From positions 1 through 41,950 of the forward strand of contig JABMOY010000115.1 of NCBI GenBank assembly GCA_013203955.1: 41,950 nucleotides of DNA, written 5' to 3'. Shown here in pieces: positions 4,651-34,002 of this stretch. The notes under the pieces were generated by a model. It had not been told where the DNA came from, did no database searches, and saw only the letters and a list, made by a program, of their open reading frames with translations. Numbering within the stretch: position 1 is the stretch's first letter; each line of letters opens with the position of its first letter. The position numbers and the translations under genes are program-made. Source of the stretch: Rhodospirillales bacterium. Lineage in GTDB: Bacteria; Pseudomonadota; Alphaproteobacteria; Rhodospirillales; Casp-alpha2.

Positions 4651-4706
4651 ACGTTTCCGGCTTTACCGACCGGAAGCAATATCAAAATCCTGGGCGGATT
4701 AAAGTG

Positions 4707-6373: not shown

Positions 6374-6434
6374 ATGTCCTCCCTGGATCGTTATTCAGGA
6401 TTCGATGATCCTTATCGCTCAGAGTGCCACAAAC

Positions 6435-6459: not shown

Positions 6460-6527
6460 GCCCAAACTTCCCAGAATAAATGAGCCACCGTCGCAAAGAC
6501 GGGGTTTAAGGGAGGTAAATTATTATC

Positions 6528-8438: not shown

Positions 8439-8444
8439 TCCCGG

Positions 8445-9257
8445 TTAGGCCGGGTCTTCGGTGTTGGCCTCTTCGGGAATCTTGGGCGTGGGGTTTGGCG
8501 CAAAGACTTCTTCGGCCGCTTTCAGAACATCCGGTGTCTCCGGGATACCCTCGATTGGCGGCGGCGGAGGGGCAGCCAGTTCAGCTTCCAACCGTTCCTT
8601 CTTGGCCAGCCCTTTGATAAGCATGGATTGACCGGGAAGCAGGGCGGCGAGGGCGGAAGCTACGGAATCCTTGCCCTCTTCGTTGCCGGCTTTGCTTTTA
8701 GGCGGGGGCGGCGGGGGCGGGGTATCCGATGCGGGCATGCGGGCGCGGGCCACGGCTACGACCTTTTCCAAATCCGGCCCCGAACACAGGCCCAGATTGA
8801 CAGGGTTCTGGGGTTTGATATTGGGCATGTTCCAATGGCTGCGCTCGCGGATCGCATTGATCGTCGGCTTGGTGGTGCCGATCAGTTTTGAAACTTGGGC
8901 GTCGGAAAGCTCGGGATGGCTGCGCAGCAACCAGGCGATAGCGTCCGGGCGGTCTTGGCGTTTAGAAACCGGGGTATAGCGTGCGCCTTTTTGGCGGACC
9001 TTCGGCAAAGGGATTCCCGGTACGGCCATTTTCAGGCGCGCCTTGGGATCACCATCGCAACGGGCCAGTTCTTCCAGCGTCAATTCGCCGCCGGCAATCG
9101 GGTCCAATCCCTGCATGCCGGTTACGACCTCGCCATCGGCAATGGCCTGGACTTCCATTTCGTGCAGTCCGCAAAATTCGGATATCTGCTCGAACGTCAA
9201 CGCTGTATTTTCAACGAGCCAAACAGCCGTTGCCTTTGGCATCAACGGATGCGCCAT
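8445..9257 (-). CDS. trcR: TrcR-type cell cycle transcriptional regulator (DUF1013)
   Basis: A 270-residue protein starting MAHPLMPKATAVWLVENTALTFEQISEFCGLHEMEVQAIADGE, the hallmark of the alphaproteobacterial DUF1013/TrcR family. It then has MQGLDPIAGGELT and a second helix-turn-helix-like part (HPELSDAQVSKLIGTTKPTINAIRERSHWNMPNIKPQNPVNLGLCS, broken here by my reading). Residues after about 185 form a Pro/Ala-rich acidic extension with a polyproline run near 195-202. Family members are reported as CtrA-linked cell-cycle regulators. The start at 9257 is preferred over 9296 because the family begins MAHPLMP and an AAAGGA lies upstream. The gene follows the quinone oxidoreductase gene at a 115-base distance on the same strand. 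Confidence 0.88.
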   Translation of the reverse strand: MAHPLMPKATAVWLVENTALTFEQISEFCGLHEMEVQAIADGEVVTGMQGLDPIAGGELTLEELARCDGDPKARLKMAVPGIPLPKVRQKGARYTPVSKRQDRPDAIAWLLRSHPELSDAQVSKLIGTTKPTINAIRERSHWNMPNIKPQNPVNLGLCSGPDLEKVVAVARARMPASDTPPPPPPPKSKAGNEEGKDSVASALAALLPGQSMLIKGLAKKERLEAELAAPPPPPIEGIPETPDVLKAAEEVFAPNPTPKIPEEANTEDPA

Positions 9258-9372
9258 CTTCGTTTTTCCTTTTCCAGAAGACCTCCGGCCTACCAACAGG
9301 CATGCCGGACCATTGAACGGCCCCTTTATAACGCCGGGCTGCCCATTCGGTCAAACATCACAAACGCCTATT

Positions 9373-10371
9373 TTAAGGGACCAACATGATCTTGCCTATG
9401 TGCTGGCTCGACTCCATCAAACGGTGGGCTTCCGTCGCGTCGTTCAGGGGAAAAGTCGCGTGAATCACCGGCCTAATGTCGCCGGCGGCAATCAATGGCC
9501 ACACTTTTTCGATCAGAACATTGGCAATTTTGCCTTTTTGTTCAATAGGTTGTGGTCTTAGCGTCGATCCGGTCATCGTCAGACGCTTCAACATGACCGG
9601 CATGAAGTTGACTTCCACCTTGGACCCACAGAGGAAGGCGATGGACACATGCCGGCCATCGGGCCCCAGGGCCTTGATGTTGCGGGGAATATAGTCGCCG
9701 CCCACCATGTCCAAGATGACGTCTACGCCCCGGCCTGAGGTGAAGTCTTTGGCCGCTTCGACGAAGTCTTCCTCCTTGTAATTGACGGCCCGCTCGGCGC
9801 CCAATTCCAGGCAAACTTTGCATTTTTCCGCGCTGCCGGCGGTGGTAATGACCCGCGACCCAAGCTTCGATGCAATCTGGATGGCGGTCGTGCCGATGCC
9901 GCTGGACCCGCCGTGCACCAGAAAGGCTTCGCCGGGTTGCAGGTGGGCCCGCTCGAAGACATTTGACCACACGGTGAAAAACGTTTCCGGCAAGGCAGCC
10001 GCCTCGACCATGTCGAGATCTCCCGGAATGGGCAGGCATTGGAGGGCGGGGGCGGCCACAAAATCCGCGTATCCGCCGCCCGCCACCAGGGCGCAGACCT
10101 TGTCGCCGGTCTTCCAAGCGCCCGCGTCTTTGCCTATGGCGGCAATGGTGCCCGCGACTTCTAGGCCTGGAATGTCGGTAACGCCCTCAGGCGGCGCATA
10201 GTGGCCTTGGCGCTGGATGCAGTCGGGCCGGTTGACGCCGGCGGCTTCGACTTTGATTAGGACCTCGCCGGCGGCCGGTTCGGGAACGGGCCGTGTCCCC
10301 GGTATCAGCATTTCCGGTCCCCCGGGTTCGGAAATTTCAATACAGTTCATGGTTTCGGAAATGGCGGTCAT
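9373..10371 (-). CDS. NAD(P)H quinone oxidoreductase, PIG3/QOR-like medium-chain dehydrogenase family
   Basis: A 332-residue zinc-free MDR-superfamily oxidoreductase. It opens with MNCIEISEPGGPEMLIPG after a seven-residue leader, contains GVNRPDCIQRQGHYAPPEGVTDIPGLEVAG in the substrate domain, and has the nucleotide-binding motif LVHGGSSGIGTTAIQIASKLGSRVITTAGS at about 151-180. The TIGR02824/PIG3 quinone oxidoreductase group has this GVNRPD...G.Y.PP.G.....GLE pattern. It lacks the cysteine set of zinc alcohol dehydrogenases. The likely reaction is NADPH-dependent reduction of quinones; the physiological substrate is not readable. It is divergent from the DUF1192 gene. No clear Shine-Dalgarno precedes either possible ATG. 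Confidence 0.85.
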   Translation of the reverse strand: MTAISETMNCIEISEPGGPEMLIPGTRPVPEPAAGEVLIKVEAAGVNRPDCIQRQGHYAPPEGVTDIPGLEVAGTIAAIGKDAGAWKTGDKVCALVAGGGYADFVAAPALQCLPIPGDLDMVEAAALPETFFTVWSNVFERAHLQPGEAFLVHGGSSGIGTTAIQIASKLGSRVITTAGSAEKCKVCLELGAERAVNYKEEDFVEAAKDFTSGRGVDVILDMVGGDYIPRNIKALGPDGRHVSIAFLCGSKVEVNFMPVMLKRLTMTGSTLRPQPIEQKGKIANVLIEKVWPLIAAGDIRPVIHATFPLNDATEAHRLMESSQHIGKIMLVP

Positions 10372-10428
10372 GGGCTAAGGCGCTCTCGCATGTTGATTTC
10401 GGAATATGGTATTATTTACTTACTTAAT

Positions 10429-10454
10429 ACGGGTGCAATACGGGTGCAATACGG
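10429..10454. repeat. Short tandem repeat, 11-bp unit, two copies plus partial
   Basis: ACGGGTGCAAT occurs at 10429-10439 and again immediately at 10440-10450, followed by the first bases of a third copy. The array abuts the GGAGGAGG ribosome binding site of the DUF1192 gene. Confidence 0.9.
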
Positions 10455-10464
10455 GGAGGAGGCC

Positions 10465-10647
10465 ATGGATACGGATGATTTAGAGCCGTCGGTCAAAAAG
10501 CCGGCGGTTAAGAACCTGGAGGAAATGAGTATCGAAGCCTTGCAGGACTATATTGCCGAGATGGAAGGCGAAATTTCCCGTGTTCGCGAGGCCATTGCCG
10601 CCAAGAAGGAGGCCCTTTCCGGCGCCGAGGGGGTATTCAAGACGTAG
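10465..10647 (+). CDS. DUF1192 family small coiled-coil protein
   Basis: A 60-residue protein: MDTDDLEPSVKKP, then a helix EMSIEALQDYIAEMEGEISRVREAIAAKK and a short tail ending in VFKT. The acidic start with DDLEP and the block MSIEALQDYIAEME are typical of alphaproteobacterial DUF1192, whose function is unknown. The start at 10465 is fixed by GGGGAGGAGG just upstream; longer readings from 10390 would cross the tandem repeat. It converges on a small membrane protein gene with a 4-base gap. Confidence 0.88.
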   Translation: MDTDDLEPSVKKPAVKNLEEMSIEALQDYIAEMEGEISRVREAIAAKKEALSGAEGVFKT

Positions 10648-10651
10648 AGGG

Positions 10652-10867
10652 TTAATCTGCTTCCTGAGACCTCTTTTTGGCCATGAACATCAGCCAGCCG
10701 ATGGGGCCAAGGAATAAAATAATAACCAGCCATCCCCACCTGGGGCCAAACGGGCATTTCGATTCCAGGGGTGTCTTCCAGGGGCCGCTTCTGGGCGAAA
10801 ATACCACGTGAAGCAGGGGAAGGACGAAGCCGATAATTAAAACTGTCCAGGCGGCGGTGGTGTTCAT
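10652..10867 (-). CDS. Small two-helix membrane protein, PLDc_N-like
   Basis: A 71-residue protein with two membrane segments, at about residues 5-23 (AAWTVLIIGFVLPLLHVVF) and 43-63 (GWLVIILFLGPIGWLMFMA), separated by a charged loop with CPFGPRWG. The pattern 'W..vi.f.GPiGwl.Y' matches the N-terminal phospholipase D nuclease-like (PLDc_N) hairpin found in many small envelope proteins. The function is unknown. The gene is followed upstream by a long non-coding stretch. Confidence 0.7.
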   Translation of the reverse strand: MNTTAAWTVLIIGFVLPLLHVVFSPRSGPWKTPLESKCPFGPRWGWLVIILFLGPIGWLMFMAKKRSQEAD

Positions 10868-10994
10868 TTGGGTCGCTTTTCATCGCAGTTAGGCTGTTAG
10901 GGGCGAGCTTAACACGTTCCGGCGTGGTCTTGAGGAGTTCTTACGAATCAAAGGTTTCCGCGACCCTTCAACCTTTCCCTCCCTGCAGAGCCAG

Positions 10995-11022
10995 TTGCTG
11001 GCTTCCATTAACAAGATTTTAA
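10995..11022 (+). promoter_or_regulatory. Putative sigma-70-type promoter of the candidate sRNA
   Basis: TTGCTG at 10995-11000, a 16-base spacer and TTTTAA at 11017-11022 would place the start of transcription near 11029. The -35 box lies inside the palindrome AGCCAG-TTG-CTGGCT (10989-11003), which could be a repressor site. The -10 match is only moderate. Confidence 0.35.
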
Positions 11023-11028
11023 GAAGTC

Positions 11029-11132
11029 CCGGATAAGGTTAAGTCATGGGTGAGGAGAAAAATTATCATCCATTCAACTTCGACGCCTCCCTGTTGAACT
11101 CGCCGCCCCTTCGGGGGCGGCGCTTTTTCTTT
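11029..11132 (+). ncRNA. Candidate trans-acting small RNA with anti-Shine-Dalgarno loop
   Basis: Three consecutive hairpins are visible. Hairpin 1 pairs ATGGGTGA (11046-11053) with TCATCCAT (11066-11073), with one G-T pair, and has a purine loop starting GGAG. Hairpin 2 pairs TTCAAC (11073-11078) with GTTGAA (11093-11098) and displays CCTCCC (11086-11091) in a 14-base loop. Hairpin 3 is CGCCGCCCC-TTCG-GGGCGGCG followed by CTTTTTCTTT, a textbook intrinsic terminator. No protein gene ends immediately before it on this strand, so an independent transcript is likely. Loops with CCUCC are known from several alphaproteobacterial sRNA families that block ribosome binding sites. Family membership is inference. 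Confidence 0.6.
11101..11132 (+). terminator. Strong Rho-independent terminator
   Basis: A 9-bp GC stem closed by a UUCG tetraloop (CGCCGCCCC, TTCG, GGGCGGCG with one more G) followed by CTTTTTCTTT. No coding gene on the plus strand ends nearby (the DUF1192 gene ends 450 bases upstream), which supports a separate short transcript. Confidence 0.85.
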
Positions 11133-11165
11133 GCCTAGATTCCTAATTGCCATTATGAGGGTTGG

Positions 11166-11315
11166 ACCCCCCGATCATGCTTTTCGATAGGGGGGTTGAC
11201 CGGATGCTCCGGGCTTGGGTATTGTCCTCGGTGAATGTTTCATTCAGGCGAGTTTGACAGGTTCGAGGCTTAAAATTAAGGGGGCTACCGTTCAGCGGTG
11301 GCCCCCAATAATTTT
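11166..11315 (+). promoter_or_regulatory. Hairpin array upstream of the thioesterase pair
   Basis: Four inverted repeats follow each other. ACCCCCC / GGGGGGT is at 11166-11172 and 11190-11196. CCGG-ATGCT-CCGG is at 11200-11212. A long stem TGTC-CTCG-TGAATG / CATTCA-CGAG-GACA spans 11223-11259 with a TTT loop and small bulges. GGGGGCTACC / GGTGGCCCCC is at 11280-11306, followed by AATAATTTT. The last could terminate transcription. This may be a second structured RNA or a 5' leader controlling the thioesterase genes. I do not recognise a known riboswitch. Confidence 0.45.
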
Positions 11316-12969: not shown

Positions 12970-14793
12970 TTACGAGGCGTCTTCTTCGGTTTTTGGAGAG
13001 GTGGGAGGGTTAATTGGCGTTTGCGGAACAGGGGCGGGTTCCGCCTGAGCCGGGGCAGCTTTCCCAGGTTGTGGTTGGGCGGCGGCTTCTTCTCCGCCTT
13101 CGGCTTCGTTCCACTTGACTTCAAAAATGTTGATAGGTTCGGAGAAACCCTTCATTTCAAAACCGCCGCAGCTGACGAACGTATAATCCTTGCCGGCGCA
13201 AATGCCCCTGACGATTTCCGAAACATAAATCTGGTCGGCCGATGCCTTGTCGACAATGCGCGCCGAAAGCTGCACGACGGTGCCGAACAGGTCGTTATCC
13301 TCGGCGATCGGCTCGCCGGCGTTGAGCCCGATTTTCAGGTGCAGGGGAAGGTCGGGGTTTTGCTGCGTATAAAGGGCGGTTTCCCGTTGCATGGTGATAG
13401 AGGCGTCGATGCCATCCGATGTTCTGGCGAAAGACGCCATAATGCCGTCCCCGGTGTGCTTGATTTCCTTGCCCGCATTGGCGCTGAGCGCCTCGCGGAC
13501 GACCCTGTTGTGGGCGCGGACAACCTTTTGCGCCCCTTCATCGCCTAAGGATTGAGTCATCGCCGTTGATCCGGCAATGTCGGTGAACAACACCGTAACG
13601 GGGCCGGTCTGTTCTTCCCTGGGCTTTGGCTTGTTCCATTCATTGAGGGCGTTTTCAAGCAGCCGGGCCCCCTGGGCCTCGTCGGTCAGGTAAGTATTGA
13701 TGCTGTTGCGCCCCGACTGGAACATCTGCATGTAGCGGGCATCGGCCATCAGGTATTCTTCGTAGCGTTGAGAGAAAGAGGCCGCATGGGATTTCTTAAA
13801 GCCTAAGGTTTCGACGCATTGGGAAAGAATTTTTATGTGCGACTCGGGGTCCATATTTCCTTCCTGGGTCAGAATCTCGCAGGCCCCCGCTAAATACATG
13901 CTGAGCCCGAATTTGTTGAAGTTATCCAAATTACCTACGGGGACCTTGCTGCCCTTCATGGATTCCACAAGAAAGCCCTGCATATAGACCTTAAGCTTTT
14001 CGGCTGTTTCCGATAATTCGTTCGGATCTGCAGGCTTCGCCTCAGGTTCTTGTTCTTCGGCGGCAGATTCGGGTTGCGGTTCCGGTTCGCTGGGTGAGGG
14101 TGGTTTAGCCTGGCGCTGGGCGGCCCGGGCCCTGGCCGCGGCTTCCTGGGCGGCGCGTTTTTCGGCTGCCCGTTGCGCGGACCTCGCCGACATGGCGAAA
14201 AGCCAAGCAAGAAACCGGTTCTGCTGGGATTTTTTCAGCTTCACGTCTTTCATGACAGTGGCGGTCATGCCAAAGGCGGAAATCAGGAAGACGACGATAA
14301 AAACGCCGATCAGAAGATTCGTCTGATTGTTGCCGGTGATGCGAACGCCAAAAATCTTGGTGCCGCCAAAAATCTCGGAAGCCATGACCGCCAAAATTCC
14401 TGAAATGCATAGACAGAACAACATCACGCCCAGAAGCTTGATGAGCACGCTGGACAAGCTTTGGCGATCCGGTTTCTTAGAGGCCGTTGAGGGAGGGTTT
14501 GCCCTCCGGGTTTCGGAGGATTTTGATGTTCTTCCACGACCGACGGGCCGGGCCCTCTTGACGGCGGGCTTCGGTGGCCTGGCATCCTTGAAAATGACCG
14601 CATCGGAAAAGACGCCGGTGTCCGGGTCCAGAGTTTCGGCGACGACCCTGACGGCTTCGATGTGGATACGATCCTCCAGCAGCATCTTGGCTTCGGCGAT
14701 CGCTTCGTCTCTTTGGTCGCCAAGGAAATTTTCGTGGATGGTCCACTGATCGCCTTGCCGGACTTGGAGCTCGAATGTTTTGTTTTCCGTCAT
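12970..14793 (-). CDS. Membrane-bound class III adenylate/guanylate cyclase, downstream paralogue
   Basis: A 607-residue protein that would make cAMP (or cGMP). In order: an N-terminal domain of about 68 residues (FELQVRQGDQWTIHENFL ... VFSDAVIFKD), a basic linker, membrane helices at about 112-133 and 158-181, an Ala/Pro/Glu-rich linker, a conserved helical part at about 264-395 (NFNKFGLSMYLAGACEIL ... YLMADARYMQMFQSGRNS), and the cyclase domain at 398-560. Asp405 (LFTDIAGST) and Asp449 (KHTGDG) are the two metal ligands. Lys445 precedes the second one, and Arg512 (LSARI) is the transition-state residue. Gln508 stands where many enzymes have Asn. The tail after 565 is Pro/Ala-rich. It has the same architecture as the upstream gene, 96 bases away, and is probably co-transcribed with it. 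Confidence 0.88.
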   Translation of the reverse strand: MTENKTFELQVRQGDQWTIHENFLGDQRDEAIAEAKMLLEDRIHIEAVRVVAETLDPDTGVFSDAVIFKDARPPKPAVKRARPVGRGRTSKSSETRRANPPSTASKKPDRQSLSSVLIKLLGVMLFCLCISGILAVMASEIFGGTKIFGVRITGNNQTNLLIGVFIVVFLISAFGMTATVMKDVKLKKSQQNRFLAWLFAMSARSAQRAAEKRAAQEAAARARAAQRQAKPPSPSEPEPQPESAAEEQEPEAKPADPNELSETAEKLKVYMQGFLVESMKGSKVPVGNLDNFNKFGLSMYLAGACEILTQEGNMDPESHIKILSQCVETLGFKKSHAASFSQRYEEYLMADARYMQMFQSGRNSINTYLTDEAQGARLLENALNEWNKPKPREEQTGPVTVLFTDIAGSTAMTQSLGDEGAQKVVRAHNRVVREALSANAGKEIKHTGDGIMASFARTSDGIDASITMQRETALYTQQNPDLPLHLKIGLNAGEPIAEDNDLFGTVVQLSARIVDKASADQIYVSEIVRGICAGKDYTFVSCGGFEMKGFSEPINIFEVKWNEAEGGEEAAAQPQPGKAAPAQAEPAPVPQTPINPPTSPKTEEDAS

Positions 14794-14889: not shown

Positions 14890-16854
14890 CTATTCGGTGG
14901 TGGTGGTAGTGGCGGTGGGGGGAGACTCGACTTCGCCCTCAATGTCATGCCACATCACTTCGAAAAGGGTGATGTCATCCCCGAAGCCTTTCATGGGAAA
15001 GCCCCCGCGGTTGGTGAATTGATAATTCTTTCCGGCACAGATACCGCGAACGATTTCAGAAACGAAGATTTCGTCGGCCGACGCCTTATCGACGATGCGC
15101 GCCGAAAGCTGCACGGTCGTTCCGAACAAATCGTTATCTTCGGCGATTGGTTCGCCAGCATTGAGGCCGATTTTCAAATGCAAGGGAAGGTCCGGGTTCT
15201 GCTGATTATGAAGAGCCGTTCCCTTCTGCATTTCTATGGATGCATCGACACCGTCCGAGGTCTTGGTGAAAGACGCCATGATTCCGTCCCCGGTGTGCTT
15301 GACCTCCTTGCCGGCGTTGGCGCTGAGTGCCTCGCGGACGATCCGGTTGTGGGCGCGGACAACCTGTTGTGCGCCGGCGTCTCCCAAGGCCTGCGTCATC
15401 GCCGTCGAGCCGGCGATATCGGTGAACAGAACGGTAATCGGGCCGCTTTGCTCTTCCCTGGCCTTGGGCTTGTTCCATTCGATAAGCGCGTTGTCGAGCA
15501 GCCTGGGTGCGGCTGTTTCTTCGGAGGTAAAAATGTTCATGGCGTTCCGACCGGCTTGGAACATCTGCATGTAGCGGGCATCGGCCATCAGGTATTCTTC
15601 GTACTTGTCGGCAAACGAGGCCGCATGAGATTTCTTGAAGCCCATGACCTGGACGGCGTCGCTCAGAATCCTGGAACGGGTTTTAACATCAAGTTCCTTG
15701 TTTTGGGATAGGATTTCGCAAGCCCCGGCAAGGAAAAGGTTAACGCCGAACTTGTTGAAGTTATCCATTTTCTTTTGGTCGGTTTGGCTTCCCTCCAGCC
15801 CCTTGGACAGGAAGCCCATCATATATGATTTCTGTTTTTCCCCAGCCGGCGACAGAGGTTCCACTCTGGGTGCGCTTTCGGGTTTGCCGTGTGTGGCGGC
15901 ATCCAGGACGACGCCCCTTCCGGTGTTTTCTTGGCTGGGTTGCTCCTTTTCTTGCCCGAGTTTTTCCCGAAGCCGGTCGGTAAGGGCATCGTTTTCTGCC
16001 GCCTGTTCGGGCGTCGTTGCCGGTTCGACTTTGAATTCCTCGACCCCCTTCATGGCCTGATCCAGGCTTGCCATGGTATCGGCATTGGTAGCGGCGCCCC
16101 CTTCCATGAGTTCCTGACTGGGGCCGGCGGTGGCGCTTGTGCCCGCATCGACCGGGGGGGGTGCGGCGGCTGGCATCTTTTTCGGCGGGGCTTTCCCCGG
16201 CCTTTGCGGGGCCTGCTGCGATTGGCCCCTTCGTTTTCGCGAATTTTCCAGGGTCTGGCCCCTCATGACGGAAATGGTCAGGGACAGGGCGGTGATCAGG
16301 AAGGTCGAAATGAACACCCCGATCAACATATTCGATTCGGCATTACCAGTAATACTCATGCCAAGGATTATTGTTCCGCCGAATAATTCTTCTGCGACGA
16401 ACGAAAGGGCAGCAGCCAGAACGAGGCTGAAAAGAAGAACCAGAAGCAGTTTGACGACAACGGCTGTCAAAGTGGAGGGCTGTTTCGACGTCGCTGCCCT
16501 TCTGCGGGGCTGGGCCGCACCCTTGGATTCGCCTTTATCTTGAGTGAGCCAGGATTCGTCCCGGGCGGAAGGCCGACGGGAATAACTACTACTACTGCTA
16601 CTGCTGCTGCTCTTGCCGCCTGATGCGCCGGTGGATTTCAAGCCCGGGCTTTTGTAGACGATGAACTCGTTATGGACGTCCAACTCGGGGTCATAGACTT
16701 CTTTGATGACCTTGACGGCATCGACCGTGCTGAGTCGGTCGAGTTCCCGGCCCTCATCAATGGCCGCGCTTTTTTGGTGGGCCAGGAAGGTGGCATGGAT
16801 GCTCCACCTGCCGTTTTGTTGGACCTGTACCTCGAATGTCGTGCTGCCGGTCAT
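14890..16854 (-). CDS. Membrane-bound class III adenylate/guanylate cyclase, upstream paralogue
   Basis: A 654-residue paralogue of the next gene. The N-terminal domain reads FEVQVQQNGRWSIHATFL ... EFIVYKS (residues 6-69). A run of nine serines lies at 82-90. Membrane helices are at about 130-152 and 172-196. A long, low-complexity linker (about 200-335) is where the two copies differ most. The helical part follows at about 340-465, and the cyclase domain at 471-636 has Asp479 and Asp523 as metal ligands. The catalytic parts of the two paralogues are nearly the same (for example HLKIGLNAGEPIAEDNDLFGT in both, read as two pieces). The tail ends in a Thr run. Both genes have GGTGA just upstream of the ATG. 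The cyclic nucleotide made and the input signal are unknown. Confidence 0.88.
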   Translation of the reverse strand: MTGSTTFEVQVQQNGRWSIHATFLAHQKSAAIDEGRELDRLSTVDAVKVIKEVYDPELDVHNEFIVYKSPGLKSTGASGGKSSSSSSSSSYSRRPSARDESWLTQDKGESKGAAQPRRRAATSKQPSTLTAVVVKLLLVLLFSLVLAAALSFVAEELFGGTIILGMSITGNAESNMLIGVFISTFLITALSLTISVMRGQTLENSRKRRGQSQQAPQRPGKAPPKKMPAAAPPPVDAGTSATAGPSQELMEGGAATNADTMASLDQAMKGVEEFKVEPATTPEQAAENDALTDRLREKLGQEKEQPSQENTGRGVVLDAATHGKPESAPRVEPLSPAGEKQKSYMMGFLSKGLEGSQTDQKKMDNFNKFGVNLFLAGACEILSQNKELDVKTRSRILSDAVQVMGFKKSHAASFADKYEEYLMADARYMQMFQAGRNAMNIFTSEETAAPRLLDNALIEWNKPKAREEQSGPITVLFTDIAGSTAMTQALGDAGAQQVVRAHNRIVREALSANAGKEVKHTGDGIMASFTKTSDGVDASIEMQKGTALHNQQNPDLPLHLKIGLNAGEPIAEDNDLFGTTVQLSARIVDKASADEIFVSEIVRGICAGKNYQFTNRGGFPMKGFGDDITLFEVMWHDIEGEVESPPTATTTTTE

Positions 16855-17464: not shown

Positions 17465-18670
17465 TCAAGGCTTATGGGAGGGTTTTCCGGTTTTTTCGGG
17501 GAACTTGAGGGATTTCAGCGAAAGAGCGCCCAGAACAACGACAATCACCATCACCAAAGCCCCGCCGTAATAAGGCCAATCCCGCCCCAGGAAACCGAAA
17601 AGAAACCCGGCCCAAGCCGGGCCGGTAAAACGCGCCATGGTCGATGCCGAGCGCGTCACGCCCATGATGCCGCCTTGTTCGTCGTCGCCGACCTGAAGGG
17701 ATATTAGGCTGTTCAATGACGGTGAAATGATACTGAATCCGTAACCGGCAACCGTCATCGCAATAATCAAAACCGTGATGTTTTGGCTGAAGGGGATCAA
17801 CAGAACCCCCAGCGCCAGGGCAACGGCGCCCTGGATGACCAAGTGCGCTTCGCCGAACCGGCGGACCAGCCGACCGACCAGTCCGCCCTGAATGAAGGCG
17901 CTCAACAGCCCCACATAGGCGAACAGATAACCATTTTGTTCCGGCCCCCAACCGAATTTGCGACGCGACCACATGGCAAAGGTGGATTCCAGGCCGGCGA
18001 AGGCAAAGGTGGCCAGAAACGTCAAGCCGATCAGCAATCCGACGTTCTTGCGCTGGAGCGCTTCGCGGAACATAGCCATGCGTTTTTTCGGCGGTTCTTT
18101 CGCCAACTTTTGGCGTATTTCAAGGGGAAGAGATTCTTTCAGAATAAAAAAAGCTAAAATGAGTGCCGTGAAAGAAAGTCCCGCGGCGGCGAAGGCGGGA
18201 CTTTGATAGTCCGCGTTTAAGGGATCGGATCCTGCTAAAATTCCCCCGATGGCCGGGCCGGCGATAAAGCCCAGGCCGAAGGCAGCGCCGATGGCGCCCA
18301 TGCCCTTGGCGCGGTTTTCCCGGGTCGTGATATCGGCGACATAGGCAAATGCGGCGGAGATGTTGCCGGCCATGAAGCCGCCGACGGCGCGCACCGCGAA
18401 TAACATCCAAAGGCTTTCCGCGAACCCCAGCCAAACGTATGACATCGCTGCCCCCGCCAAGCTGACGAGCAGCACCGGGCGTCGACCGATACGGTCGCTG
18501 AGCCGGCCCCAGAAAGGTGCCGCCAGGAACTGGGTGAACGAATAGGTCGCCATCACCATGCCCACCATGACCGGCGATGCCTGGAAGAATTCCGCGTAGA
18601 AGGGCAACAGCGGGATGATCACGCCGAACCCGATCAGGTCTATAAGGACGATGAGAAAGAGGATCAGCAT
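17465..18670 (-). CDS. MFS transporter, TetA/DHA1-like
   Basis: A 401-residue, 12-helix major facilitator. It starts directly in the first membrane helix ([29 protein letters not shown]), which carries the D-x-IGFGxIIPLLP signature of the DHA1/TCR group. The loop 2-3 motif is [14 protein letters not shown], and helix 5 has the antiporter-like motif [18 protein letters not shown]. This group exports tetracycline-like drugs or other small compounds with proton antiport, but the substrate cannot be inferred and resistance should not be assumed. It is followed by rpmE, with which it may share a terminator. It is separated from the OmpA/motor operon upstream by 89 bases. Confidence 0.88.
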
Positions 18671-18759: not shown

Positions 18760-19932
18760 TCAGCGTTGGGTTAATTTCAACTCAATTCTTCGGTTCCGGC
18801 GTTTGGCGATTTCGTCGTTACGGTCATCCAGGGGCTGAAACTCCCCGAACCCGGTCGCGGCGAGACGGTTCGGCGCAAGCCCCTGGGTCACCAGGAATTG
18901 AACCACGGAAATGGCCCGGGCCGACGACAATTCCCAATTCGACGGGAACCGGGTTGTTTTGATGGGATCCTTGTCGGTATGCCCATCGACGCGAAGAACC
19001 CAATCGATATCGGCGGGGATTTCCCCGGCGATCAGGTTAAGGGTCCGGGCCAGTTTCTTGATCTGCTCCTTGCCCGCTTCGCCCATATCCGCCGACCCTT
19101 TGGTGAACAAGACTTCGGATTGAAAGACGAAACGGTCGCCGACAATACGCACGCCTTTTTGGTTGCCCAGTAAATCGCGAAGGCGTCCGAAAAATTCAGA
19201 ACGATAGCGGCTCAGCTGATGGACCTTGCTGGCCAAGGCCGCGTTCAACCGATTGCCGAGAGAAGTAATCTGAACCTTTTGTTCGGTGGCTTGTCTTTCC
19301 GCCACCTCCAAGGCCAAAGATATCTTGGCCAAGGTTTCGCGAAGCGCCGCCGTCTGCTGATTGAGCAGCGCCACCTGGGCGCGCGCGCTTTTTGAAATTT
19401 CCCGCTCTTCCAAAAGGTTCTTGCCCGATTGTTCCAATTTCCCGGCCATCTCGGCGACCTTGGCCTGTAGTTCTTGGCGAAGGGCGCGAAGCGCTGCCAC
19501 GTCCTGGTTGAGGCTGGCCATCTCTTGAAGTTGGGTGGTGATTTTCGATTTATCCGCTTCGATGGCCCCCAGGGCGGAGGCCAGGTTTCTTTCCGTTGTC
19601 TCGGCACGTTGGCGAAGCTGGCTGACGGCGGTTTTTAGGTCGTCGCGAAGGGCTACGGAAATCTGTAACTCCTGGGACAACTGGGCGACGTTTTTACGTA
19701 AATCCGTATTTGCCCGGCGCTCTAACGACAACAAGTCGGCCAGTTCACCGATTTGGTTTTGTAGCCTCAATAAAGCTTGGTCCCGACCCGACAGGGCTTG
19801 GCCCAGAAAAAACTGCGCTAACACGAAAACCATCAGCAGAAACATGGTGACCATCAACATCGTCGCCAGGGCGTCGACGAACCCAGGCCAGATATTGGTA
19901 GCGCGTTGCCGGCGGCGGGCGAAGGCGGTCAT
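18760..19932 (-). CDS. MotB/OmpA-like stator protein with long periplasmic coiled coil
   Basis: A 390-residue protein. The N-terminus is basic (FARRRQRATN), then one membrane helix with GFVDALATMLMVTMFLLMV at about 17-35. Asp20 lies where MotB/TolR/ExbD proteins carry the ion-binding Asp. About 200 residues of predicted coiled coil follow, rich in Leu, Gln, Ala and Lys (about 50-250). The C-terminal OmpA-like peptidoglycan-binding domain (about 265-390) contains VLRVDGHTDKDPI, NWELSSARAISVVQFL, GLAPNRLAATGFGEFQPL and AKRRNRRIELKL. It is the last gene of a three-gene operon, 21 bases after the MotA/ExbB-like gene. Together they would form an ion-driven motor anchored to peptidoglycan. Confidence 0.85.
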   Translation of the reverse strand: MTAFARRRQRATNIWPGFVDALATMLMVTMFLLMVFVLAQFFLGQALSGRDQALLRLQNQIGELADLLSLERRANTDLRKNVAQLSQELQISVALRDDLKTAVSQLRQRAETTERNLASALGAIEADKSKITTQLQEMASLNQDVAALRALRQELQAKVAEMAGKLEQSGKNLLEEREISKSARAQVALLNQQTAALRETLAKISLALEVAERQATEQKVQITSLGNRLNAALASKVHQLSRYRSEFFGRLRDLLGNQKGVRIVGDRFVFQSEVLFTKGSADMGEAGKEQIKKLARTLNLIAGEIPADIDWVLRVDGHTDKDPIKTTRFPSNWELSSARAISVVQFLVTQGLAPNRLAATGFGEFQPLDDRNDEIAKRRNRRIELKLTQR

Positions 19933-19953
19933 CTGATTTTCATAAACCCGGGC

Positions 19954-21093
19954 CTAGCCGTCGCCCGAGCCCTGGCTGGAGCCCGCGATGGTACGGGCAA
20001 GCAATTTGATCTCGCTTCTGATCTGCTGGGTTAACTCGTCGCGGCCTTGGCTTAATTCCTCCGTCAACTTGGTCAAATAGACATCAAGGTTGCGGATATG
20101 GGCGCGGGTGGTTTCATCCAAACCGCTGTTTGATGAGCCGGCGGCAAGTTGGGCCAGAATGGGCTTCATTTCAATCTGCGCTTCGGCCAAGCCTTTCATC
20201 AAGGTTTGTTCAGTTCGCATATGATCGGTCAGGATTTCCAGTTTTTCGCCGAGGGCGGTAATGCCGGTGTTGGCCGAAATACGACCCTCCTCGCCCCGGG
20301 CAATGGTCCGTTGCAGGTTCTCCAGGCTTTCCGCCGTTTGTTCCAGAAGCGCTTGTACGTAGGCCGGGATGGGCTGGTCCGTTTCCGTCAACAGCGAACT
20401 GGAAGCCAGCCGGGTGACCGTCGAAAGCCAGTCTTCGAGATCGTTGTAAAACCGGTTCTGCGCTTGGTTGGCTTGTAGGTCCAGGAAACCCAGAACCAGT
20501 GACCCGGCGAGCCCGAAAAGCGAAGAAGAAAACGCTGTTCCCATGCCGGTCATTGGCGCCTTCAGGCCCCGCTTAAGATCGGAAAAAACGGTTGTCGCGT
20601 CGCCCCCGTCAACACTAAGCCCGCCGATGACGTTGCCGATTGAAGCCACCGTTTCCAGCAATCCCCAAAAGGTCCCCAAGAGGCCTAGGAAAATCAGCAG
20701 GCTGATGGTGTAGCGCGAAATGTCCCGTGATTCATCCAACCGGGAAACGATGCCGTCCAACAGCGAACGCATAGCCATGGTCGACAGGCTGAGCCGGTCC
20801 TTGTGTTCGCCGACCATGGTCGCCATCGGCGCCAGCAGTCGAGGAGGTCGGGCTTCGGAAACCGGGCTGGAATTTTGGCGGAAGTTTTCAATCCACGTGA
20901 CTTCGGGGGAAAGCATCAAAACTTGGCGGAAGTTATAAACGATGCCAAGGATAAGAACCCCGACAATCAGGCCGTTCAACGGAACGTTTGCCATAAACGC
21001 ATTTTGCAGAGGAAAAAATAAAACACCCGACAGGCCAATGACCGCAAAGACGAAAACAATCATCCGGATAAGATATTTACGAGGCCGGGTCAT
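19954..21093 (-). CDS. MotA/TolQ/ExbB-family proton channel protein
   Basis: A 379-residue inner-membrane protein. Helices lie at about 10-29 (LIRMIVFVFAVIGLSGVLFF), 38-60 (LNGLIVGVLILGIVYNF), about 126-160 (SRYTISLLIFLGLLGTFWGLLETVASIGNVIGG) and about 177-205 (MTGMGTAFSSSLFGLAGSLVLGFLDL). GLLGTFWGL and MGTAFSSSLFGL are the family's channel-lining segments. The last 150 residues are cytoplasmic and helical, longer than in TolQ/ExbB and without the flagellar MotA torque-loop pattern. The start overlaps the upstream gene by four bases (ATGA). It partners with the following MotB-like gene. In other systems such 5:2 complexes drive flagella, Tol-Pal, TonB, gliding or Zorya defence; here the output is unknown. 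Confidence 0.83.
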   Translation of the reverse strand: MTRPRKYLIRMIVFVFAVIGLSGVLFFPLQNAFMANVPLNGLIVGVLILGIVYNFRQVLMLSPEVTWIENFRQNSSPVSEARPPRLLAPMATMVGEHKDRLSLSTMAMRSLLDGIVSRLDESRDISRYTISLLIFLGLLGTFWGLLETVASIGNVIGGLSVDGGDATTVFSDLKRGLKAPMTGMGTAFSSSLFGLAGSLVLGFLDLQANQAQNRFYNDLEDWLSTVTRLASSSLLTETDQPIPAYVQALLEQTAESLENLQRTIARGEEGRISANTGITALGEKLEILTDHMRTEQTLMKGLAEAQIEMKPILAQLAAGSSNSGLDETTRAHIRNLDVYLTKLTEELSQGRDELTQQIRSEIKLLARTIAGSSQGSGDG

Positions 21094-22169
21094 CGTTCGG
21101 TGACGTTCACGTCGACCCTGTTTACGGGGCCCTCCGTCGTCTTACTACCAAGGGCCCGAACGTCGATGCGCGTACTGCGGACACCGCTTTCAATCAAGAA
21201 CGAGCGTATGGACAAGGCCCGGGACAAGGACATGCGCCGAGCTTTGCTGGGGGACAAGGATTTGCCGCCGGCGTAGGCCAAAATCTGCAAGCGAAGTTTT
21301 TCCTTGCCCTTCAGTTTCTTAGCCAAGCCCGTCAAGCCGGGTTTTGCGTCGGTGGGCAGCTTCGATGCGGTCTCTCCAAAGATTATCTGCAAGGCCCGCC
21401 CCGGCTTCATGCCTTCGCTGGAAGGCGACAGGGATGCCTGCTCTTCTTGCTTGGTCGATGGGGCCGATTGGGGCGTCGGTTTCGGTTTGGCGGCAAGCGA
21501 TGGGGCCGGTTTTTTTGCCGGTGGCACCGCAGGAGGTGGGAGAGGCGGGGCCGCTTTTGTTGTGGCCGGTGGGGCAGGGGGCGCCATTTTCGCCATGGCC
21601 TTCGGTTTAACGGGCGGCTTAACGGTCGGTTTAGCCGCCTTTATTTCTGGTTTCCTCTCCGAAGCGGGAGGGGCCGGGGGCATAACTTTTTCCGCCATTG
21701 GAGCCGGGGGCTTGGTCGCCGTCAGGGGCGCGGGGGGCTTGGTTGCGGCAATGACCGGCGCCGACGGCTTCTGCATAATTGGCTTTGCTTTAGGCCTCTT
21801 TTTCCGGGCGGTGCGCCTGGCCGGCGTTTTGGGTTCTCCCGAGGGGCGTTTCAATTTTATCCTGCCGGCTTCCTTAGGCACCGCGACATGAAGTTGGGAA
21901 ATCGGTTTTTTTGTTCCCGGAATTAAAAGTCCGCCACGGGGGCTTCCCTCGGAAGGACGAGCGATAAAAGGTGTTCCCGCCGCCAGTGCCGGGCTCGCGT
22001 CGCCGATAACGCTAAGGTCAACAGTTACGTTATTGGTGCTGAGATCGACGTTTTGCGCTTTGGCGTTATTCGTGAAGAAGCCGAGTGCTAAAACAACCAC
22101 ACATAATAGGCCGCGAACCGCAGCCAGGAAGGGGCCTGGAAAGATATTCATTAATGCGGTGTTCCCCAT
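21090..22169 (-). CDS. Secreted Pro/Ala/Lys-rich protein with C-terminal OmpA-like domain
   Basis: A 359-residue protein with a signal peptide (about residues 7-38, hydrophobic core GLLCVVVLALGFF, likely cleavage after AKA). The stretch NVDLSTNNVTVDLSVIGD follows. Residues about 105-250 form a long low-complexity stretch of Pro, Ala and Lys repeats. Residues 260-359 look like an OmpA-type fold: GRALQIIFGETASKLP, LRLQILAYAGG, RMSLSRALSIRSFLIESGV and NRVDVNVTER. It is the first gene of the operon and ends in a four-base overlap with the proton-channel gene. A periplasm-spanning partner of the motor, reaching peptidoglycan or the outer membrane through its Pro-rich arm, is the simplest inference. 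ATG at 22151 is an alternative start. Confidence 0.75.
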   Translation of the reverse strand: MGNTALMNIFPGPFLAAVRGLLCVVVLALGFFTNNAKAQNVDLSTNNVTVDLSVIGDASPALAAGTPFIARPSEGSPRGGLLIPGTKKPISQLHVAVPKEAGRIKLKRPSGEPKTPARRTARKKRPKAKPIMQKPSAPVIAATKPPAPLTATKPPAPMAEKVMPPAPPASERKPEIKAAKPTVKPPVKPKAMAKMAPPAPPATTKAAPPLPPPAVPPAKKPAPSLAAKPKPTPQSAPSTKQEEQASLSPSSEGMKPGRALQIIFGETASKLPTDAKPGLTGLAKKLKGKEKLRLQILAYAGGKSLSPSKARRMSLSRALSIRSFLIESGVRSTRIDVRALGSKTTEGPVNRVDVNVTER

Positions 22170-22347: not shown

Positions 22348-23145
22348 TTAGCGTCCGGCGTCGGCGAGAATCTTTAGAAGCGTTCCGTGCATTTGGTTGT
22401 TTGCGGCAACGATTTCACCGGTTTCCAGGATTTTATCGCCGCCCTTCATATCCGTAACGAAACCGCCGGCTTCCCGGACCAAAACCATGCCCGCAGCCAT
22501 GTCCCAGGGGTGGAGCCCTGTTTCCCAAAACCCTTCGAAGCGCCCAGCCGCGACGTAGGCTAGGTCGAGCGCCGCCGATCCGAAACGCCGGACCCCCGAA
22601 GACACCTCCATCACCGCCTTCAAGTGCTTCAAGAAGTGTTCATGGCCTTCTTTTCCCCTAAAGGGAATGCCGGTGGTGAACAGCGATTCATTTAGGTTTT
22701 CACGCGCCGATACTCTGATCCGGTTGCCGTTGAGGTACGCGCCCAGGCCTTTCTCGGCGACGAACATCTGATCCGACACCGGCTCGTAAACAACGCCGGC
22801 GGCCGGGTCGCCGTCCCGCTCGAGGGCGATGGAAATGGCAAAATGCGGAATCCCGTGAAGAAAGTTTGTGGTTCCATCCAGGGGGTCGATGATCCAGCGG
22901 TTCGACGTGTCGGCGCCTTCGATTTCGCCACCTTCCTCAAGCAGAAATCCGAAGCGCGGCCTGGCTTTCGACAGCTCTGCGACCAGCGTCCTTTCGGCTT
23001 TTTTGTCGGCGGTGCTAACGAAATCCGCCGGCCCCTTTTTCGATACCTGAAGTTTTTCAATCTCGCCGAAATCGCGGATCAGCCCCCGCGCGGCCTTTTG
23101 TGCCGCGGCGGTCATCACATTCAAAAGCGCCGACCGCTGTATCAT
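22348..23145 (-). CDS. suhB: Inositol-1-monophosphatase family protein (SuhB)
   Basis: A 265-residue Mg2+-dependent phosphatase. The metal-binding motifs are LLEEGGEIEG (residues about 68-77), WIIDPLDGTTNFLHGIPHFAISIAL (about 84-108) and GLHPWDMAAGMVLVREAGG near the C-terminus. The YVAAGRFEGFWE segment is typical of SuhB. The family removes phosphate from inositol phosphates, and in E. coli SuhB also joins the rRNA antitermination complex. The gene is likely in an operon with efp, which lies 36 bases upstream on the same strand. Confidence 0.93.
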   Translation of the reverse strand: MIQRSALLNVMTAAAQKAARGLIRDFGEIEKLQVSKKGPADFVSTADKKAERTLVAELSKARPRFGFLLEEGGEIEGADTSNRWIIDPLDGTTNFLHGIPHFAISIALERDGDPAAGVVYEPVSDQMFVAEKGLGAYLNGNRIRVSARENLNESLFTTGIPFRGKEGHEHFLKHLKAVMEVSSGVRRFGSAALDLAYVAAGRFEGFWETGLHPWDMAAGMVLVREAGGFVTDMKGGDKILETGEIVAANNQMHGTLLKILADAGR

Positions 23146-23181: not shown

Positions 23182-23751
23182 TCAGTCCTTGGCCCGCTCC
23201 ACGTAAGAGCCATCGGCGGTGCTGACGACAATGCGGGTGCCGGCTTCGATGTGGGGCGGAACCATGCAGCGGACGCCGTTTTCCAACATTGCCGGTTTGA
23301 AGGACGATGAGGCCGTCTGCCCTTTGACCACGGCATCGGCTTCCGTGACCTTGAGGGAAACCTGGTCGGGTAGCTGAACGCCGATGGGGTTGCCTTCGTG
23401 GCTTTCGAAGATAACGGTCATGTTGTCTTGCAGGAACGGTACCTGGTCTTCGCCCAGAAGGTCCCGGTCTATGGAAATTTGATCGTAGGTTTCCAAATCC
23501 ATGAAGGTGAACATGCCGCCTTCGGAAAAAAGAAACTGGAATTCCTTTTGGTCCAAATGGGCCCTTTCCACCGTTTCCGAAGACCGGAAACGTTCGTTGA
23601 GTTTGGTGCCGTTACGAATATCTTTTAATTCAACCTGCAGATAGGCGCCGCCCTTGCCGGGCTGCGTATGTTGGGTCTTTACGGCCCGCCAAAGGCTGCC
23701 CTGATGCTCGATCACCATGCCGGTGCGGATGGCATTGCCGTTAATTTTCAT
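23182..23751 (-). CDS. efp: Translation elongation factor P
   Basis: A 189-residue factor that relieves ribosome stalling at polyproline. It starts [45 protein letters not shown]. Lys33 in the QPGKGG loop is the position modified in EpmA-type EF-Ps; no modification genes are in the window. Domain II ([18 protein letters not shown]) and domain III ([58 protein letters not shown], seen here as a continuous reading) are complete. The frame extends 38 codons upstream without family similarity, so I use the ATG at 23751. EF-P would help translate the polyproline proteins encoded nearby (TolA, the Pro-rich OmpA-like protein). Confidence 0.97.
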
Positions 23752-23854
23752 ATTCGCTATCCGTGTTTGGGTGGCCAATCGGGTTGAGGCGCGGAAGCTA
23801 ACACCTTGCTTGTCGCTAGGCAATGCCGGGGCTTGGGGCTCGGCAATGACCAAG

Positions 23855-24502
23855 TTAACCGGCATCGGCTATGGCGTTGTTAAAGGCCTTAACCCCCGCC
23901 GCCGGACCTTCCGGATGGTCCCAAACGGCCGAAACGACCGCCAGAAAATCGGCCCCCGCCCGGACCAGCGGCGTGCAGTTTTCCGGCGTAATGCCGCCGA
24001 TGGCGACGGCGGGCACCACCATCAGTTCCGACCACCATTCCAGGATATCAATGGAGGCGTCGGTCTTGGCATCTTTGGTGGCGGTCGGGAAAAAAGCACC
24101 GAAAGCAACGTATTCGGCGCCTTGTTCCGCTGCCTCAATGGCTAAGTGCCGTGAATCGTGACAGGTAACGCCGATGATGCCGTCGGCGCCTAAAGCCTTG
24201 CGGGCCTCGGCATATGATGCGTCATGCTGACCGATATGGACGCCGTCACAACCGCATTCGGCGGCCAAGTCCGGGCGGTCATTGAGGATCAAGGGAACAT
24301 CCTTTTCCCGGCACAGCGGCAACAAAACCGCGACGGCCCGGCGGATGGCGTCGTCATCGGCATTTTTCAACCGCAATTGCAAGGCGGCGACGTCGCCACT
24401 GTTCAGGGCTTCGGCCAGGGCCCCCGAAAACTTTATTGGGTCTATTTCCGGCGGCGTAATCAGATAGAGTCGGCACCGTTCTTCGTCCACGTTATTTTCC
24501 AT
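23855..24502 (-). CDS. thiE: Thiamine phosphate synthase
   Basis: A 215-residue TIM-barrel enzyme that joins HMP-PP and thiazole phosphate to give thiamine phosphate. Motifs: AALQLRLKN (strand 2), [25 protein letters not shown] (about 86-110), [34 protein letters not shown] (about 123-156), and [30 protein letters not shown] near the C-terminus. These cover the diphosphate- and thiazole-binding loops. It overlaps the previous gene by 11 bases and is followed by efp, so a three- to four-gene operon is likely. No THI-box riboswitch is visible before the group. Confidence 0.95.
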
Positions 24503-25112: not shown

Positions 25113-25925
25113 TTGGATATAGCGACACTACTGGGTTTGTTTATCGGCGTTTCGGTTGTGACCCTGGCCATCATGACCGGGTCCGAGTTGTCTATTTTTC
25201 TCAATTTGCCCGGGTTTCTTATCGTGCTCGGCGGCACCTTCGCGGCGACGTTGATCAAGTTCCCGCTCTCGGGCGTCTTTGTCGCTTTTTTCGTCGGCAT
25301 CAAGGCGGCGTTCATCAACGAGCGCGAAAGCCCCCGCGAAATCATCGACCTGACCATGCGTATGGTCAAGCGGGCGCGCAAGGCGGGGCTTCTGGGTTTG
25401 GAAAGAATCAGCGTCAAGAACACCTTTTTCAAGAAAGGCATTCAGCTTTGCGTCGATGGTCGAGAAGGCGCCGTCATCCGCAAACTGCTGACCAGTGAAA
25501 TGGAACTGGCCATTCAGCGTCAGGAAGTCGGGGAAAAAGTCTTCCGGGCCATCGGCGAATCGGCGCCGGCCTTCGGTATGGTCGGGACCTTGGTCGGGCT
25601 GGTGCAGATGTTGAGTTCCATGGACGACCCGACGACCATCGGTCGTGCCATGGCCGTGGCGTTGTTGACGACGCTTTACGGGGTTTTGGTTGCGCAACTG
25701 ATCGCGCTTCCTATTTCGGACAAACTTGAGGCCAAGAACGAGATTGAAAAGGCCAACAGGGTCTTGATCATCGAAGCCATCATGCAAATCCACGAACGCA
25801 ATAATCCAACCGCCGTACTCGACATCTTGGAAGCTTATCTGCCTGAAAAGCAGCGCACCCAAGGCGATAGGGGAGAAGACGACGGAGACGACGGGCCGAA
25901 AACCAGACGGGCGACGGATAAATAA
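25113..25925 (+). CDS. motA: Flagellar motor stator protein, PomA/MotA type
   Basis: A 270-residue stator subunit. The start is TTG (25113), eight bases after CGGAG, and the protein begins LDIATLLGLFIGVSVVTLAIMTGSELSIFLNLPGFLIVLGGTFAAT, which matches the shorter PomA/MotP-like group in its GG-T-x-AATLIKFP loop. Membrane helices 3-4 are AFGMVGTLVGLVQMLSSMDD and GRAMAVALLTTLYGVLVAQLIALPIS. The cytoplasmic torque loop runs about residues 60-145. The last 40 residues are strongly charged and acidic/basic. PomA-type stators are often Na+-driven; the ion cannot be determined here. The stop overlaps the motB start by one base (TAATG). Confidence 0.9.
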   Translation: MDIATLLGLFIGVSVVTLAIMTGSELSIFLNLPGFLIVLGGTFAATLIKFPLSGVFVAFFVGIKAAFINERESPREIIDLTMRMVKRARKAGLLGLERISVKNTFFKKGIQLCVDGREGAVIRKLLTSEMELAIQRQEVGEKVFRAIGESAPAFGMVGTLVGLVQMLSSMDDPTTIGRAMAVALLTTLYGVLVAQLIALPISDKLEAKNEIEKANRVLIIEAIMQIHERNNPTAVLDILEAYLPEKQRTQGDRGEDDGDDGPKTRRATDK

Positions 25926-26695
25926 TGAAAATATCCGCGCTTGAACGCCGAAAGATCGAAGGCGCCCCCCGATGGATGGTGACGTTCGCGGACTTGATGT
26001 CTTTGCTGTTCGCCATGTTTGTTTTGTTGTTGTCGTTTTCCAAAGTTGACAACGCCAGCTTTACCCAAAATGCCGGTCCCATGCGTGACGCTTTCGGCAA
26101 GGGGCCAAAGATGATGCGCACCACCTCTCAGCCCTCGATCCAGCCCGGCGAGGCGGGGCCCGGCAAGGGCAAGACCCAGGAACATATTCGAACCCGCTCG
26201 ACGGCCCGGGTCGTTCAGTTCGACAATAGCGTCAAAGCCAAGCGAAGTTTCCTTTTTCAATTCCGGCGGTCCATGGAACGGGAACTGGCGGAATCGCGGA
26301 TCCTTCTTATCGATAAAGGCGACCGCATCATCATCCGCTTTCCCGGCGCCACCTCTTTCGTCCCAGGCAGCGCCGAAATGGCGAAGGACATCGGGCCGAC
26401 TCTGGACCGCATCGCCAGCATCCTTAGGGCGACAAAGGGCCAGATTGTGGTTTCCGGGCACTCCGACAATTCACCTATTTCGACGGCGCAATTCCGGTCC
26501 AACTGGGACCTGTCATCGGCCCGCGCCGTGACCGTTGTCCATTACCTGATGAACAAGGCCGGCATCAAATCGTCCAGGATCACCGCCCAAGGGTTCGCCG
26601 ACAGCCGCCCGCTGGTGAAGAACAATTCACCGGAAAACCAGTCCAAGAACAGACGCGTCGAAATCTCAATCGAGATTACGTCGTTTGAAGGCTAA
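25925..26695 (+). CDS. motB: Flagellar motor stator protein, PomB/MotB type
   Basis: A 256-residue partner of MotA. The N-terminal helix WMVTFADLMSLLFAMFVLLLSFS holds Asp23, the ion-binding residue. The next segment, FTQNAGPMRDAFG, is the plug region. The OmpA-like peptidoglycan-binding part follows: QIVVSGHSDNSPI, FRSNWDLSSARAVTVVHYLM and SRITAQGFADSRPL, ending NRRVEISIEI. It is translationally coupled to motA. It converges on gap with 48 bases between stops. No flagellar hook/basal-body gene is in the window. Confidence 0.92.
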   Translation: MKISALERRKIEGAPRWMVTFADLMSLLFAMFVLLLSFSKVDNASFTQNAGPMRDAFGKGPKMMRTTSQPSIQPGEAGPGKGKTQEHIRTRSTARVVQFDNSVKAKRSFLFQFRRSMERELAESRILLIDKGDRIIIRFPGATSFVPGSAEMAKDIGPTLDRIASILRATKGQIVVSGHSDNSPISTAQFRSNWDLSSARAVTVVHYLMNKAGIKSSRITAQGFADSRPLVKNNSPENQSKNRRVEISIEITSFEG

Positions 26696-33993: not shown

Positions 33994-34002
33994 GGCTAAT
34001 TG

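Follow-up and report, generated by a model that had tools for sequence, protein, structure and literature searches.

A conserved gene pair of Alphaproteobacteria as a candidate peptidoglycan-bound motor with a heptad-phased coiled coil

The analysed stretch (the window) comprises 41,950 nucleotides of a Rhodospirillales bacterium (assembly GCA_013203955.1, contig JABMOY010000115.1) and carries three consecutive genes on its minus strand, here called P (21090..22169, 359 aa), A (19954..21093, 379 aa) and B (18760..19932, 390 aa). All were taken from the list of open reading frames (ORFs) and assigned by alignment and structure prediction (P), family and fold comparison (A) and family searches (B). 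It is considered probable (roughly 0.6) that A and B form a proton-driven motor that acts on peptidoglycan through the register-locked coiled coil of B, with periplasmic output and with P as a separate protein. According to this model, A and B would build a rotary-type inner-membrane motor, A5B2 by homology, which B would clamp to peptidoglycan; the 5:2 stoichiometry, rotation and proton use are assumed to be as elsewhere in the superfamily. Two B membrane helices would extend into a parallel two-stranded coiled coil that stays in heptad register all the way between the ion-binding Asp and the wall-binding domain, and force or torque from ion flow would be passed stiffly to the wall. The output of the motor would be periplasmic, in upkeep of the wall or envelope, and would not pass through the cytoplasmic tail of A; the motor may pull on, twist or sense peptidoglycan. 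P would be a separate periplasmic protein of the same locus that may assist the motor where both occur.

The wall motif, conserved ion site and phase-locked coil of B place the putative force path between ion site and wall. Periplasmic output is favoured because of this path, and because the tail of A differs in length and is almost missing in some cases.

The coil of the window B is ~207 residues long, lacks Pro and has a hydrophobic period of 3.52. Coil lengths were compared in 141 B proteins (134 different sequences) in which both motifs were found; cut B genes and those without either motif, including ones linked to type I secretion systems (T1SS), were left out of this count. The distance from the Asp in the transmembrane (TM) segment to the wall motif was 227–682 residues, mostly proline-poor coiled coil. 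Among 52 distinct lengths, 34 equalled 3 modulo 7, 12 equalled 0 and 4 equalled 6, and 50 could be composed of whole heptads plus at most one shift of 4 or 3 residues. The heptad preference had a binomial p of 4e-16 (corrected for choice of class; p values treat lengths as independent, though relatives are not). Since distinct lengths need separate insertions or deletions, the heptad conclusion stands qualitatively. When moduli 3 to 15 were compared, only 7 stood out, together with 14 as its multiple. After redundancy removal, the class 3 modulo 7 contained 97/121 proteins (<90% identity), 75/97 (70%), 49/66 (60%) and 21/25 (50%). Hydrophobic periods of 3.50–3.52 were obtained for 11 coils picked for this purpose (window, Sinorhizobium and nine long ones), with period signals of 17.6–35.1 against a shuffled 95% level of 5–6. 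Between its ends, the coil was free of Pro in 91 of 140 B proteins and had at most one in the others.

Coiled coils rise by 0.1485 nm per residue, and the periplasm is ~20–30 nm wide. At this rise a straight coil would measure ~31 nm in the window B and ~88 nm in the longest one (~592 residues). Very long B coils, exceeding the periplasm if straight, were seen at loci L124 (Falsiroseomonas stagni, with the longest B found; up to ~592 residues), L128, L122 and L187 (loci of the survey are numbered with an L). A hairpin-folded coil was considered and dropped: 14-residue steps were no commoner than 7-residue steps predict (18 vs 16 of the 34 main-class lengths). P was likewise discarded as a correlate of coil length, since the B medians of 318 with P (95 loci) and 290 without P (46 loci) are confounded by lineage and short loci.

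B is a member of a catalogued family. It scored 469.8 bits against NF006543 (NCBIfam PRK09039.1-2; cut-off 305), and B of Sinorhizobium and a 729-aa B passed other members of the PRK09039 set (NF006542 to NF006546). The set carries the name 'peptidoglycan -binding protein' only, without assigned function, and its models say nothing of A, P, a motor or a heptad lock. In the Pfam scan the OmpA domain of B was matched at E 1.9e-15; this peptidoglycan-binding domain of OmpA/MotB type has GHTD and NWELSSARA motifs. A single TM helix, read from the sequence, bears the ion-site Asp20 in WPGFVDA, as in B subunits of the MotA/TolQ/ExbB superfamily. B was correctly described beforehand as a MotB-like protein with Asp20, about 200 residues of coil and a peptidoglycan-binding domain. 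The acidic TM residue was Asp in 141/141 proteins, under a search pattern open to both Asp and Asn. With G[HF][TA]D as pattern, the wall motif was GHTD in 126, GHAD in 14 and GFAD in 1 of these, and an LSxxRA-type helix motif followed it in 129.

A belongs to the MotA/TolQ/ExbB superfamily by A-subunit family and by fold, with a long TM3/TM4 hairpin and a conserved Thr. This residue, Thr141 in the motif GLLGTFWG, was invariant in 74/74 aligned homologues. The Pfam family MotA_ExbB (cut-off 22.9 bits) was matched weakly in the scan of window proteins (20.5 bits) and above the cut-off in the genome search (23.2 bits). An AlphaFold monomer model built with 74 sequences had a mean pLDDT of 85. Its residues 26–240 aligned best with ExbB and TolQ (Z 11.7), followed by ZorA (11.2) and MotA (9.9), where differences of less than 1 among ExbB, TolQ and ZorA count as ties. 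The 50 best Foldseek rows shown for A were all chains of such motor complexes. According to the model and the homologues, the tail of A is predicted to be helical and is variable in length. Between the GLLGT motif and the C-terminal end, A proteins have 100 to 316 residues, ~75 of them TM3–TM4, and the shortest tails, nearly absent, occur outside Alphaproteobacteria. The 43 distinct tail lengths were spread 8, 8, 7, 6, 5, 5 and 4 over the seven heptad classes without preference. The preliminary description had proposed a MotA/ExbB/TolQ-type channel with a long tail; the channel type is retained, and the long tail is given up as a defining feature since its length varies.

Flagellar and Tol versions of such motors had been noted elsewhere in the window and were located by family searches. 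A flagellar MotA/MotB-type pair lies at 25113-26695, and an ORF at 34000-34731 with a strong MotA_ExbB match was named TolQ because it is flanked by YbgC (33499) and Pal (37594). The whole genome (3.1 Mb, 245 contigs) contained 8 MotA_ExbB matches at E 1 or better, 7 of them over the cut-off and A included, so A is one of several motor-type channels. A further motor-like set was noted on contig C205 of the same genome (L006), where another small ExbB-like gene (319-2097, minus strand; 218 aa) is followed by two genes (209 and 173 aa) that matched no Pfam family. The channel core was also placed in a maximum-likelihood tree rooted on flagellar MotA. In this tree, which has long branches and unsettled bootstrap values, A, ZorA of types I and III, T1SS-linked proteins and two other kinds split from flagellar MotA (100/99) and TolQ (96/88). 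Three flagellar A proteins were included; MotA1 was left out (long branch) and groups with them in another tree.

With flagellar MotAB/PomAB the locus shares an A-B pair whose B has a TM Asp and an OmpA-type domain. It differs in that the family scan gave no MotA_N match for A and no MotB_plug match for B at E 0.1, in the ~200-residue coil of B and in the separate position of A in the tree. A flagellar stator was rejected on account of the tree position and the absent plug. TolQR-TolA-Pal and ExbBD-TonB resemble the locus in the core of A (Z 11.7) and differ in that B has an OmpA domain and P is a predicted secreted protein whose signal would be cleaved; at the locus itself, no gene resembling TolA or TonB was recognised.

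The distribution of the genes was determined in a class sample of 289 Alphaproteobacteria genomes (thresholds E 1e-10 for A and E 1e-30 for B). A was found in 188 genomes, mostly in one copy, B in 183 and a P-like protein in 157. Among near relatives, A was present in 36/41 genomes, the own genome included. The order P-A-B was found in 29/29 other near-relative genomes with loci, P or B being cut by the contig or locus end in some. Of the 149 class genomes with a listed A position, 109 have P immediately before A. The linkage of the three genes is more than chance, given the 29/29 relatives and 109/149 listed genomes. Among the best 80 named A hits, in which L113 and L115 share one contig, P preceded A in 64 and B followed it in 78; genera with P among them were Azospirillum, Magnetospirillum, Magnetovibrio, Terasakiella, Kiloniella, Sneathiella and Roseomonas. 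In the other 40 of the 149 listed genomes P was not directly upstream. In 19 A-B loci without linkage to an inositol monophosphatase-family (IMPase) gene, no gene beyond A, B and antisense or low-complexity frames was common to more than three loci; three alphaproteobacterial ones share one upstream gene, and locus pairs share single genes. With A of L217 as query, an A-like protein was detected in 2/79 genomes of family f31, both of the T1SS-linked kind. An apparent family-wide loss of the motor was noted for this family.

Several points weigh against the proposed wall motor. The Pfam match of A is weak, MotA_ExbB being matched at E 0.001 or better in 37 of 74 members. In the same fold list, unrelated helical bundles reached Z values of up to 9.4, and the fold tool cautions that Z under ~13 may reflect a common long-helix arrangement. 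A profile search of Protein Data Bank (PDB) sequences with A matched no motor protein. A heptad lock is expected for any continuous coiled coil under selection; it is evidence of a coil and not of torque. Being longer than the periplasm is wide, the longest coils cannot be explained by an upright rod alone. In 101 of the 289 class genomes (74 of 234 good ones) no A was detected; a motor missing from so many genomes is therefore not generally essential. Finally, the nearest relatives of A include ZorA, which leaves room for a cytoplasmic output.

In a Zorya-like arrangement of this kind, B would be static on the wall, the A ring would turn, and the tail of A would signal to an effector, possibly in phage defence. 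This is judged unlikely, although A does resemble ZorA. All 74 aligned A proteins matched the PADLOC profiles ZorA1 (PDLC00597) and ZorA3 (PDLC00647-649) at E 0.001 or better (best 5.1e-16), whereas among controls from the own genome four flagellar-type A proteins gave no match, TolQ one weak match and the L006 protein six weak ones. The tree also groups A with ZorA types I and III apart from flagellar MotA and TolQ, and the predicted helical tail would suit such signalling. By profile score, A is nearer to ZorA than flagellar MotA is, and full ZorA scores far higher: A reached ~51 bits (ZorA1) and 26 bits (ZorA3), full ZorA proteins score hundreds, and four full ZorA3-type proteins scored 680 bits or more against the ZorA3 models. 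Approximately unbiased (AU) tests on an origin of ZorA inside the A family rejected neither grouping (p 0.54 and 0.32). Of ten loci with Zorya type III-like proteins, four were scanned, and these matched PADLOC ZorA3 in full; flanking genes in L204 are DUF3348 and DUF2894. Together with Zorya type I-like proteins (L244 and L245) and the T1SS-linked pairs, they were the closest relatives encountered.

The effectors of Zorya are ZorC, D, E, F or G. None of them was matched among ten nearby proteins scanned, in keeping with the initial observation that no nuclease or helicase gene accompanies the trio, and two cyclases gave only weak Pycsar profile matches. The class-wide distribution and the synteny with IMPase and elongation factor P (EF-P) genes resemble housekeeping rather than a defence island, and the tail of A can be very short. 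A resemblance of B to ZorB was dropped, since these profile matches are unspecific and B scores no higher than the window's flagellar MotB does. The A-B pair shares with ZorAB a channel subunit with weak ZorA profile matches and a similar core fold, and an OmpA-type B subunit. It differs in having no effector gene found alongside, in its synteny across the class and in the long coil of B, compared with a 223-aa ZorB-like protein in L204. A Zorya defence identity was rejected because no effector gene was found among the proteins scanned and because of the housekeeping-like distribution.

An accessory export motor, like SiiAB of the Salmonella SPI4 T1SS and with its substrate encoded elsewhere, is also improbable. 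It would be consistent with relatives of A and B in type I secretion gene sets, namely L203 (TolC-B-HlyD-A-RTX protein-ABC, 1136-11267), L217 (ABC-B-A, 1828-6636) and L243 (B-A-RTX, 2182-6632), which are perhaps SiiAB-like relatives of the window pair. B of L203 has WPGYVDA and a weak N-terminal match to PRK09039 (E 5e-7), and in Sinorhizobium an ABC-protein gene of 604 codons adjoins B on the opposite strand. A passage of PMC6272769 describes SiiAB as an inner-membrane pair of MotAB type and a proton channel that controls adhesin retention. The likeness consists in the proton-channel pair and its relatives in T1SS operons and involves no sequence comparison with SiiA or SiiB. On the other side, no TolC, HlyD, RTX or exporter gene (ABC exporter, HlyD, TolC and large substrate being the hallmarks of a T1SS) was found among the scanned window neighbours, which were IMPase, the major facilitator superfamily (MFS) transporter and the cyclases. 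T1SS-linked B proteins are short (~250 residues), and of two scanned one had no OmpA match and the other was below the cut-off, whereas in the window B a complete GHTD domain is combined with a long coil. Searching PDB with two of the T1SS-linked B proteins led to no useful match; plasmid searches with T1SS-linked A proteins returned nothing, or A of Sinorhizobium only.

P itself is organised as first described, as a secreted Pro/Lys-rich protein with an OmpA fold. An N-terminal hydrophobic, signal-like segment ending AKA-Q is followed by a conserved VTVDLSV segment, a Pro/Lys-rich middle and an OmpA domain (PF00691, E 1.2e-7), and secretion with a cleavable signal is predicted. In the structure model the Pro-rich stretch had low confidence; the C-terminal domain was modelled with high confidence as OmpA-like and matched 6jfw in Foldseek (E 4.4e-7). 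The Asp of the GHTD loop binds diaminopimelate. P has AYAGG at the position of this motif, and Gly or Ser replaces the Asp in 22/22 aligned P proteins, while the conserved block retains the Arg of the LSxxRA helix.

The separability of P was examined in 20 stretches from genomes with P-like matches and no listed A. P stood beside the IMPase gene without A or B in 15 of them, with EF-P also present in 14 of those 15. The other five comprised L172 with divergent A/B, L173, L174 and L177 with P but without IMPase, and L178, a 300-base stretch without the P gene. P directly after the IMPase gene was recorded at L159-L171, L175 and L176, in genomes with no A listed; being retained there, P has a role of its own at the locus. 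Conversely, the order IMPase-A-B without detected P occurs in Sinorhizobium meliloti and Shinella, and likewise at L180, L182-L184, L193, L194 and L196 (B was undetected in L194). Bare A-B pairs were found outside the class at L199-L202, L216, L233, L234, L236-L240 and L242; in this group B was cut at L235, and L241 showed neither A nor B. From these three kinds of loci it is concluded that the A-B pair is the working unit and P a separable neighbour, not an obligate part.

The 4-base overlap of P and A (21090-21093), the 21 bases between A and B and the three ORFs themselves were all as previously listed. That P, A and B form one obligate three-part trans-envelope machine, as the overlap and the P-A-B order in relatives, in listed class genomes and among the best named hits might suggest, is quite unlikely and was dropped, given P-only loci, P-less A/B loci and bare pairs. 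Of the third, separate machine of the preliminary description, the distinctness from the flagellar and Tol motors remains and the single three-part composition does not; an envelope-spanning device is still the likeliest class.

On the minus strand around the trio, the IMPase gene (22348..23145) is the usual upstream neighbour of P or A, and an EF-P homologue (23182..23865) is a conserved neighbour. An MFS transporter gene (17465..18670, minus strand) lies downstream, as in many near relatives, and is not proposed as a part of the motor. The neighbours that we take to be EF-P, ThiE and bL31 were named from their translations. Side by side at 12970-14793 and 14890-16854 on the minus strand lie two class III adenylate/guanylate cyclase genes that match Pycsar cyclase profiles weakly, and a similar cyclase is found near P in L163-L165 and L190. 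A-like proteins of ~335 aa were observed at L211, L212 and L215; in L211 the gene is followed by one for a 263-aa TM protein, vWA-like by eye. Proteins of the L211 type are perhaps akin to the vWA force transducers mentioned in part of PMC12204202.

The B family is already catalogued and the superfamily well known. A search of openly licensed PubMed Central (PMC) papers, with subscription papers and preprints outside its scope, yielded none describing a function of the A-B pair. Two of them name PRK09039, one in a phage gene table, as a weak hit, the other in a table of BLUF proteins, and the sections concerned describe no motor role. As far as searched, this literature does not describe that B is paired with A, that the pair occurs across the class, that P is separable from it or that the shaft is heptad-locked.

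Motors that are driven by proton motive force (PMF) and extend outwards from the inner membrane as far as the wall or outer membrane are assigned few jobs in the section consulted of PMC12204202: swimming, Tol-Pal, Ton, gliding, secretion and phage defence. It is tentatively suggested that most Alphaproteobacteria run a further wall motor. Its B subunit would be a drive shaft of selected register, with a coil of ~137 to ~590 residues that grows or shrinks by entire heptads, apart from a smaller share of changes by 3 or 4 residues, and keeps one mechanical phase from ion site to head; this would be a housekeeping motor, and the motors of Zorya type III and those linked to T1SS would be its specialised relatives. 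A recent survey states, in a passage of PMC12505986, that non-flagellar B subunits are without discernible OmpA homology. If the A-B pair is non-flagellar, as the tree suggests, it would be a widespread exception to that statement. If the proposed motor is real, a basic envelope machine with fixed synteny across much of the Alphaproteobacteria, including genera such as Sinorhizobium and Azospirillum that offer laboratory models, has been overlooked, and its heptad lock would open force transmission through the periplasm to testing by changes of coil length.

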